From the NCBI GenBank assembly GCA_020248905.1, contig JADCGR010000028.1, positions 1 to 34,971 of the forward strand: a DNA stretch of 34,971 nucleotides, given 5' to 3'. Shown here piece after piece: positions 11,506 to 13,799 of this stretch (positions are counted from its first letter, which is position 1; the number at the start of each line of letters is the position of its first letter). The stretch is from Curvibacter sp. GTDB lineage: Bacteria; Pseudomonadota; Gammaproteobacteria; Burkholderiales; Burkholderiaceae_C. The notes under the pieces were generated by a model. It was not told where the DNA came from. It was given only the letters and a program-made list of their open reading frames with translations, and did no database searches. Made by a program: the position numbers and the translations under genes.

Positions 11506-11739
11506 CGTAAGGTGTCCGTTTTCAGGTTGATGCCCGCCAGCTCGGCGACCGGGCGCAGATGAGAGGCAAATGATGAACTGCACTGTAGCCGAGCGGGCGC
11601 GCGGGCCGGGGGAGTAGAACGGGCCCGGGCGGACGGCCCTGATTCGCTGGCTTCTGACCCTTTTGCATGGCAGCCCGGGCCGCAAGCGGCTGGCGGTTTC
11701 GCCGTTTCGTGTCAGAAATGGGACGAAAGTAAATCAAAG

Positions 11740-11768
11740 TTGACATTTAAGAATGTCTACACTAGATT
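11740..11768 (+). promoter_or_regulatory. puc operon promoter (-35/-10)
   Basis: TTGACA (11740-11745), a 17-bp spacer and TAGATT (11763-11768) make a good sigma-70 style promoter about 85 bp before pucB. The region 11506-11739, between it and the kinase start, shows no gene or other clear signal. Confidence 0.7.
11742..11757. promoter_or_regulatory. Second inverted repeat in the puc promoter
   Basis: GACATT, TAAG, AATGTC is a perfect 6-4-6 inverted repeat overlapping the -35 hexamer and the start of the PpsR-type site. It does not fit the TGT-N12-ACA rule by itself and may bind another regulator or be part of a compound PpsR site. Confidence 0.5.
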
Positions 11769-11771
11769 ACA
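11754..11771. promoter_or_regulatory. PpsR/CrtJ-type site over the puc -10
   Basis: TGT (11754-11756), 12 bases, ACA (11769-11771) matches the known PpsR/CrtJ consensus TGT-N12-ACA. It covers the -10 hexamer, the usual position for aerobic repression of photosynthesis genes. No ppsR gene is in the window. Confidence 0.7.
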
Positions 11772-12028: not shown

Positions 12029-12226
12029 ATGATCTACGGAAAAATCTGGTTGGTCGTCAAGCCCACGGTCGGAATCCCGATCTTTCTGGGCGCTGTCGCT
12101 GTGGGTTCCTTTGCCGTGCACGTCGCCCTGCTGACGAACACGACTTGGGTACCCAAGTTCCTGAACGGCAATGCCGTGGCCGTCCAGGCGGCTGAGCCCG
12201 ATGCGGGGGCCGCGAAGAAGAAATAG
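12029..12226 (+). CDS. pucA: LH2 light-harvesting alpha polypeptide, Phe44/Leu45 type
   Basis: 65-residue alpha subunit of the peripheral antenna. It aligns without gaps to LH2 alpha chains: [14 protein letters not shown] at the N-terminus, the ligand His31 in AVHVALL, and TTW40. At positions 44 and 45, where B800-850 proteins have Tyr with Trp or Tyr, this chain has Phe and Leu, the pair found in B800-820 (LH3) complexes. The tail [20 protein letters not shown] is longer than in most LH2 and ends in lysines, like the extended alanine-rich tail of Rubrivivax. GAGAAGGAG provides a strong ribosome site 9 bp upstream. Confidence 0.96.
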
Positions 12227-12353: not shown

Positions 12354-13799
12354 ATGAAACGCTACAGCTACCAGATCGTTTCCGCCTGGGCCCGTCTTGG
12401 CCCGAGGTTTCTGCCCTTCGCGGATGTGGCCACGCCGGGGGTGCCCCTGCTACGCCTTTTGAGGCTCTCACTTTTTCAGGTCTCTGTCGGCATGGCGATG
12501 GTCTTACTGGTCGGCACGCTCAATCGCGTGATGATCGTCGAACTCCATGTGCCCGCCAGCATCGTGGCTGCCATGGTCGCCCTGCCGATGTTTTATGCCC
12601 CCTTGCGAGCGCTGATCGGTTTCAGGTCCGACACCCACCGGTCTGAACTGGGCTGGCGTCGCGTGCCCTTTATCTGGATGGGCAGCATGATCCAGTTTGG
12701 CGGGCTTGCTGTCATGCCTTTTGCGCTGCTGGTCCTTTCCGGCGGAGGTAACGCCAGCCAGTGGCCCGTGTGGGTCGGCTGGGCGGCGGGGGGGATCGCT
12801 TTTCTGCTCGTCGGTGCCGGGCTGCACACGGTCCAGACGGCCGGCCTTGCCCTCACCACGGACCTCGTTCCCCCCGAGTCGCAGGCTCGCGTAGTCGGCC
12901 TGATGTGCGTGATGCTCCTGCTCGGGACCATCGTCAGTGCACTTCTCTTTGGTGCCTTCCTCGCTGAATTCACGCCGGCGCGTCTGGTCCAGGTCCTCCA
13001 GGCTGCTGCCGTTGCCACCTTGCTTCTCAACGTCCTTGCGCTGTGGAAGCAGGAGACCCGCCGCCCGTCCCGACAGCGGCGGGAGCAGACCGAACCCGTC
13101 CCGAGTTTCCGGCAGGCCTGGCAGTCGCATTTGGCCACGGAGGGCGCGCTGGCGCGGCTGACAGCGATCGCATTGGGCACCCTGGCCTTCGGTATGCAGG
13201 ATGTCCTGCTTGAGCCATACGGCGGACAGGTCCTGGGTATGACGGTCGGCCAGACCACATGGCTTACGGCCGCACTGGCTGCCGGTGGTCTCGCCGGTTT
13301 TTCATGGGCGTCCTACGTTCTCAACAAAAACGCTGAACCGGCGCGCATGGCGTCTTTCGGCGCCATGCTGGGCATACCGGCGTTTTCTGCCGTCATTTAT
13401 GCCGCGAGCAGCCAGTCGGTTGCGCTGTTTGCCTGCGGTGTCGTCCTGATTGGCTTCGGAGCGGGCCTCTTCAGCCACGGCAATCTCACGCTCACCATGG
13501 GACGAGCCGACAAGGAGCAAGCTGGGCTGGCGCTGGGGGCCTGGGGGGCCGTGCAGGCAAGCGCTGCAGGGCTAGGTGTGGCTGCGGGCGGGGTCTTGCG
13601 CGACACGGTAGCGGCCATGGCGGCGAGCGGCATGTTCGGGTCCCGCCATGCCGGAGCCGCTACAGGCTATGTGGTGGTCTATGCCCTTGAGATCTTGCTG
13701 CTGGTGGCGACTGTGGTCGTCATGAGCCCACTCTGTACCGGCCGTCAGGCCCGTCGTCCCTCACCCGGACCCTATGAGGGTCAAGGGGTGGGTCGGTAG
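12354..13799 (+). CDS. pucC: PucC, LH2 assembly factor of the BCD/MFS family
   Basis: 481-residue membrane protein with about 12 helices. PucC-family transporters are needed for assembly of the LH2 antenna, probably by delivering bacteriochlorophyll. Typical features include LRLSLFQVSVGMAMVLLVGTLNRVMIVELHVPA near the N-terminus (residues 37-65), APLRALIGFRSDTHRSELGWRRVPFIWMGS, and the MQDVLLEPYGGQVLGM motif near residue 282. It starts 127 bp after pucA, beyond two hairpins, on the same transcript. The ribosome site is weak (GGA at 11-13 bp), consistent with low expression compared with pucBA. LhaA, the LH1 paralogue, is the alternative, but the position argues for PucC. Confidence 0.95.
   Translation: MKRYSYQIVSAWARLGPRFLPFADVATPGVPLLRLLRLSLFQVSVGMAMVLLVGTLNRVMIVELHVPASIVAAMVALPMFYAPLRALIGFRSDTHRSELGWRRVPFIWMGSMIQFGGLAVMPFALLVLSGGGNASQWPVWVGWAAGGIAFLLVGAGLHTVQTAGLALTTDLVPPESQARVVGLMCVMLLLGTIVSALLFGAFLAEFTPARLVQVLQAAAVATLLLNVLALWKQETRRPSRQRREQTEPVPSFRQAWQSHLATEGALARLTAIALGTLAFGMQDVLLEPYGGQVLGMTVGQTTWLTAALAAGGLAGFSWASYVLNKNAEPARMASFGAMLGIPAFSAVIYAASSQSVALFACGVVLIGFGAGLFSHGNLTLTMGRADKEQAGLALGAWGAVQASAAGLGVAAGGVLRDTVAAMAASGMFGSRHAGAATGYVVVYALEILLLVATVVVMSPLCTGRQARRPSPGPYEGQGVGR

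Follow-up and report, generated by a model that had tools for sequence, protein, structure and literature searches.

We found that the window, by which we mean the whole stretch of 34,971 nucleotides analysed here, carries three puc genes in the order pucB, pucA and pucC, whose products fall into the Pfam families LHC, LHC and PUCC, respectively (Table 1). A histidine kinase with a DUF4118 domain, which we take to be KdpD-like, lies upstream of the operon, a sigma-54 regulator and an amino-acid-type ABC transporter lie downstream, and none of the 18 other open reading frames scanned in the window is a photosynthesis gene. Despite its place in a puc operon, PucB is matched by the NCBIfam model NF040862, an equivalog for the LH1 beta chain (PufB), with 64.5 bits against a cut-off of 61.

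Table 1. Genes, codons and upstream elements of the puc operon (window coordinates)
Feature	Position	Strand	Basis or remark
pucB, LH2 beta chain, 53 aa	11851..12012	+	Pfam LHC; best PDB match R. palustris LH2 beta 7zdi
pucA, LH2 alpha chain, 65 aa	12029..12226	+	translation, PDB alignment, Pfam
codon Ser27	12107..12109	+	read from sequence
codon Val41	12149..12151	+	read from sequence
codons Phe44-Leu45	12158..12163	+	Tyr/Trp or Tyr/Tyr in 850 nm forms
pucC, LH2 assembly factor, PUCC family	12354..13799	+	Pfam PUCC 3.7e-145
sigma-70-like promoter TTGACA-17-TAGATT	11740..11768	+	consensus scan, 10/12 positions; both PpsR/CrtJ-like sites overlap
PpsR/CrtJ-like site TGTCTACACTAGATTACA (TGT-N12-ACA)	11754..11771	+	motif match
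degenerate distal PpsR/CrtJ-like site AGT-N12-ACA	11728..11745	+	one mismatch; 26 bp upstream of the 11754..11771 site

The motif TGT-N12-ACA, which we take to be a PpsR/CrtJ site, occurs 8 times in the window against 4.5 expected, a weak signal when taken alone. Upstream of pucB, at least one perfect copy was found in 63 of the 76 loci, compared to 5.3 expected from first-order resampling of each upstream stretch, and two perfect copies spaced 26 bp apart were found in 33 of the 76. As judged from these upstream motifs, the puc operon of the window is probably under PpsR/CrtJ-type control.

Antenna genes of the genome and tuning residues of PucA

The genome is a draft of 3.22 Mb in 65 contigs and is 99.87% complete. 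Four matches to PF00556 exceed the cut-off, namely the puf pair on one contig (C25) and the puc pair of the window on another (C21), while a fifth is sub-threshold (15.3 versus 23 bits). A profile search with PucA likewise returned a single PucA. The pair described in the original prediction as the only one in the window thus has no second copy elsewhere in the draft, which makes this ring the exclusive peripheral antenna among the genes found and supports the suggestion that it is the main form rather than a low-light variant. A near-identical PucA copy collapsed during assembly could be hidden in the draft; it would be expected to be of the same type. The puf contig also carries bchC, bchY, bchZ and pufC, and two further PUCC-family genes are located on contig C57. 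With bchC and pufC on a contig other than that of pucBA, the genome differs from 13 of the 80 named loci, in which bchC or pufC lies close to pucBA (L042, L044, L045, L049, L064, L069, L076, L084-L087, L109 and L118; flanks of at most 6 kb, many shorter). A puc operon inside the photosynthesis cluster is therefore not confined to Rfx. antarcticus and Limnohabitans.

Translation of pucA, with the codons rechecked, gives His31, Trp40, Val41, Pro42, Lys43, Phe44 and Leu45. Using phmmer, we aligned PucA with the solved LH2 alpha chains 7ze3, 8z81, 7zdi, 7pbw and 7ze8 and found all five alignments to be ungapped up to residue 52, with gaps only after residue 52 (8z81) or after residue 58 (7zdi). 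Residues 44 and 45 are therefore not displaced by any indel: we looked for one and found none, and the Phe44/Leu45 pair originally read from an ungapped alignment is confirmed.

The complex is an LH2-type antenna, having LHC-domain alpha and beta chains, the His31 ligand and an alpha chain that is nearer to LH2 than to LH1. Most of the 11 best PDB matches of PucA are named as alphas of the B800 type (LH2/LH3), and chains named LH1 alpha score only at E 0.52 or worse. The top match by E-value is R. palustris PucD (7ze3; 31/52 identical), which has V41, K43, F44 and N46 in common with the window PucA and whose beta chain is near-identical to PucB at the C-terminus. By percent identity it is on par with 8z81 (28/46 identical), which carries Tyr41, Phe44 and Phe45. 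The chain of Rbl. acidophilus 7050 LH3 (1ijd) has Tyr41, Phe44 and Leu45, a chain named B800/820 (9dwz) has Phe41-Phe44-Gln45, and a further PDB chain (9lt4) is named B800/814.

With Phe44 and Leu45, PucA has no Tyr or Trp donor at alpha 44/45, as in LH3, but the one C3-acetyl bond that remains in 1ijd, from alpha Tyr41, has no counterpart because residue 41 is Val. The absence of a donor at all of alpha 41, 44 and 45 agrees with the LH4/PucD type instead: Val41, Phe44 and Leu45 leave PucA without the three alpha side chains that bond the B850 C3-acetyl groups in those nonameric rings for which the literature tabulates such bonds.

Distribution and history of the residue-44/45 state

Of the 26 genomes searched in the genus, 5 gave a PucA match and 21 gave none; because all five carry Phe44/Leu45, the pair in the window is more than chance. 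The pair was found in 7 of the 22 PucA-bearing genomes of the family sample (399 genomes), the remainder being Tyr/Tyr with Leu41 (8), Phe/Phe (2), Tyr/Trp (2), Phe/Val (1), Tyr/Leu (1) and Tyr/Tyr with Tyr41 (1). In the order sample, PucA is present in 30 of 399 genomes, 24 with Phe44/Leu45, 5 with another state and 1 unread, and 29 of the 30 have a single PucA match. The phylum sample gave 12 PucA-bearing genomes out of 398, 7 of them with Phe44/Leu45. The family and order samples were searched with an alignment rich in Phe44/Leu45 (A1) at E 1e-5. These three samples provide a fairer frequency than our set of 106 distinct alphas, in which 81 with Phe44/Leu45 is an overstatement since the set was drawn mostly from the best 80 of 407 matches to such an alignment. 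Collectively, Phe44/Leu45 is not rare among puc-bearing relatives.

Of the 81 distinct Phe44/Leu45 alphas outside family f95, taken mostly from the best 80 of the 407 matches, 76 have Val at residue 41, 4 have Phe, 1 has Ile and none has Tyr. Family f95, which we take to be Rhodobacteraceae because one of its alphas (L213) is identical to that of Rba. sphaeroides (chain 7pbw) over 48 residues, has a PucA match in 25 of 198 genomes, 21 with Ser27-Val41-Phe44-Leu45 and 4 with Tyr44. No plasmid record with PucA was found at the E-values searched. Two loci (L166 and L167) encode a PucA with Tyr44/His45 and Ile41, a pair not met in the literature examined, in which His45 might be a bond donor.

The B800-binding Arg(-10) position of PucB is Gln in the window and in most relatives examined. 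Among the 76 of 81 pairs with Ser27-Val41-Phe44-Leu45, again mostly from the best 80 of 407 matches, it is Gln in 73, Arg in 2 and Leu in 1. This Gln is not tied to Phe44/Leu45, since the Tyr/Tyr forms mostly have it too. In Rba. sphaeroides, beta Arg30 is reported to be an acetyl donor to B800 and to account for about 10 nm of shift (PMC8775250). Given Gln at this position, a slight shift of B800 itself is possible.

On a PucC tree of 93 rows, the Phe44/Leu45 label requires 12 changes, at least 8 of which are forced by well supported branches, and the row nearest to the window (L049, support 99) is Tyr44/Leu45. The 8 independent pairs differing at residue 44 show Val41 together with Phe44 in 4-6 cases and never the reverse (sign test, median p 0.03, at most 0.125); pooling Val and Ile gives a median p of 0.06, with one opposing pair in a few pairings. 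Adding 32 rows, 31 of them from f95, sets the alphaproteobacterial rows apart (support 98) and brings the changes at residue 44 to 17 overall. In these trees each distinct alpha is represented once, by a row with 250 or more aligned PucC residues, and L041 and L069 (28-32% identity, probably a paralogue) are omitted. The trees come from quick searches and are unrooted, hence they do not separate gain from loss of Phe44/Leu45. A tree of PucA only (44 columns) was mostly unresolved and we draw no conclusion from it. Differences at these positions also occur within genera: Tyr/Tyr and Phe/Phe are both found in g127 (L132-L135), and Phe/Tyr and Phe/Leu are found in g170 (L170/L171) with near-identical PucC.

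Hydrogen bonds and the predicted ring band

A comparison of structures across nine LH2 pairs associates two acetyl bonds with about 850 nm, one with about 825 nm and none with about 800 nm (PMC9618040). The LH3 of Rbl. acidophilus 7050 (about 820 nm) counts as a one-bond complex, Tyr41 being bonded to an acetyl group (PMC9618040, PMC9897067). The PucD-LH2 of R. palustris has no acetyl bonds and absorbs at 803-804 nm (PMC9618040, PMC5783997); the single band of LH2 made of PucD only lies at 804 nm (PMC5783997). A 2025 review describes a constitutive, single-band LH4 as the sole peripheral antenna of Roseobacter-type aerobic phototrophs (PMC12654162). In the same review, D. shibae, R. litoralis and R. 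mahoneyensis are tabulated at 804-806 nm, Roseicyclus elongatum with a shoulder at 850 nm and the antenna of Limnohabitans planktonicus at 799/813 nm. The LH4 passage of that review ascribes F44L45 to "they", a pronoun that may extend to other species. In the complex of Roseobacter denitrificans, the B800 and B850 bands are reported to overlap at 800 nm (PMC5313593), while for river isolates the source gives bands at 800-850 nm and, in the part available, no residues (PMC5017807).

Without the two donors at 44/45, the ring should absorb at well under 850 nm, and this part of the original prediction is well founded. Its equation of Phe44/Leu45 with an 820 nm LH3 is not: the same pair is found in a complex near 820 nm that has the Tyr41 bond and, according to the review, in LH4 at 804-806 nm. 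The equation left out residue 41, which is Val in the window, and the best-scoring solved relative is the 803-804 nm PucD-LH2. We therefore favour, as somewhat likelier to be right than wrong, the reading that, in a phototrophic bacterium of the Burkholderiales, pucBAC encodes the sole LH2-type peripheral ring and that the band of this ring is at about 800-816 nm. With no acetyl bond, the acetyl groups would be able to leave the ring plane, which would raise the site energies of the coupled ring and place its band at about 800-816 nm, merged with or just beside B800. The resulting spectrum would resemble that of LH4 or of the Limnohabitans planktonicus antenna (799/813 nm). Energy would flow downhill from the ring to LH1 with little back-transfer, and the ring, as the sole one, would be the chief peripheral antenna whatever the light level. 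Blue-shifting of LH2 is reported to slow energy transfer to LH1 and back, and the suggested effect is that excitation gathers in the cores in low light (PMC8775250).

A band near 805 nm finds its strongest evidence in the Ser27-Val41-Phe44-Leu45 pattern in 21 of 25 genomes of f95 together with the 804-806 nm LH4 of the review. We infer the link from Val41 to 804-813 nm by analogy, presuming Val41 in the named Roseobacter-type species. Against a band at 800-816 nm are the ambiguous F44L45 sentence and the Roseicyclus elongatum shoulder, as well as the Phe44/Phe45 chain 8z81 and several observations that favour a longer wavelength. The Tyr44Phe/Tyr45Leu mutant of Rba. sphaeroides absorbs at 826 nm (PMC9618040, PMC8775250) in a background of Ser27 and Leu41, the latter no donor either; the band of Rfx. 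antarcticus, a species with Phe44/Phe45, is at 819 nm (PMC5374385); the antenna that Pseudohaliea rubra makes constitutively absorbs at 804/821 nm (PMC3679898); and 9dwz is named B800/820 without having Tyr41. Under this alternative, which is the one originally put forward, a B800-820/826 antenna at 817-830 nm, the loss of the 44/45 bonds acts alone and a bond from Ser27 to the C13-1 keto group, or packing, halts any further shift. Ser27 of Rba. sphaeroides does bond this keto group of B850, but Ser27Ala in the wild type leaves the band in place (PMC9618040, PMC8775250). In addition, the Tyr41 bond of the 820 nm complex of Rbl. acidophilus 7050 is absent in the window, the Roseobacter-group F44L45 LH4 lies at 804-806 nm (PMC12654162), and Gln45 of 9dwz is a possible donor; if it is none, this chain implies that an 820 form can do without Tyr41. 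We consider such an antenna possible, with a sizeable minority chance.

A band near 850 nm despite Phe44/Leu45 would call for another acetyl donor (beta Trp, beta Tyr or alpha Lys43) or for an LH1-like complex, to which the NCBIfam placement of PucB could point. In P. molischianum, and to a weak extent in M. purpuratum, a beta Trp is reported to bond the acetyl group (PMC9618040), and a Trp rotamer is able to tune the ring of Gemmatimonas by tens of nm (PMC12817894). However, PucD has no acetyl bonds while having Lys43 and the near-identical beta C-terminus, which makes beta Trp and Lys43 unlikely donors here, and PucA is LH2-type, with LH1 alpha chains far down among its matches, so that we regard this alternative as improbable. 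Less probable still, to the point of being hardly credible, is a silent remnant operon in an organism that lives on LH1 only. The 21 genomes of the genus that have no PucA match speak for such loss, but pucB, pucA, pucC, the promoter and the PpsR/CrtJ-like sites are intact, the genome has kept its photosynthesis genes and the residues are conserved in relatives.

More broadly, we tentatively propose, at somewhat short of even chances, that residue 41 acts as a third switch of the spectrum in Phe44/Leu45 antennas, with Tyr41 giving about 820 nm and Val41 giving about 800-816 nm, that blue-shifted-only antennas with Val41/Phe44/Leu45 became standard in aerobic phototrophs separately in Burkholderiales and Rhodobacteraceae, and that residue 44 has switched repeatedly. 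We found no survey of residue 41 or of Phe44/Leu45 across Burkholderiales in the open-access literature. The spectral form of LH2 is often read from residues 44/45, and the window is a reason to read residue 41 too. Water absorbs less near 800-815 nm than near 850 nm, so that a blue-shifted antenna may suit planktonic phototrophs to their niche; a similar argument has been published for the 816 nm ring of Gemmatimonas.

Comparison with known antennas

The pattern of the window PucA is common in related freshwater bacteria and is closer to that of antennas absorbing near 805 nm than to the classic 820 nm form. The LH3 of Rbl. acidophilus 7050 (1ijd) has the same Phe44/Leu45 but differs in having Tyr41 as acetyl donor and Ala27 where the window has Val41 and Ser27; moreover, its species makes LH2 as well and uses this LH3 as a variant for low light or low temperature. 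The PucD-LH2 of R. palustris (LH4-type, 7ze3) is like the window in Val41, Lys43, Phe44 and Asn46 and in having no side-chain donor to the acetyl groups, whereas it has Met45 and Val27 instead of Leu45 and Ser27. It also includes a gamma subunit, belongs to a species with five pucBA pairs and, in the deletion strain, is produced in low light only.

Among Betaproteobacteria, Rfx. antarcticus (819 nm, LH3-only) and L. planktonicus (799/813 nm) also have a blue-shifted peripheral antenna; no locus named L. planktonicus is among the best 80 of the 407 matches. Rfx. antarcticus has a single puc operon with Phe44/Phe45 instead of Phe44/Leu45, and in both species puc lies within the photosynthesis gene cluster, whereas the puc operon of the window is on a separate contig. 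The Roseobacter-type LH4 ("High-800 LH2") is found in another class than the window. As we interpret the passage of the review (PMC12654162), this LH4 is an exclusive, constitutive antenna with F44/L45, and the genome studied here likewise has F44/L45 in the one PucA found in its draft.
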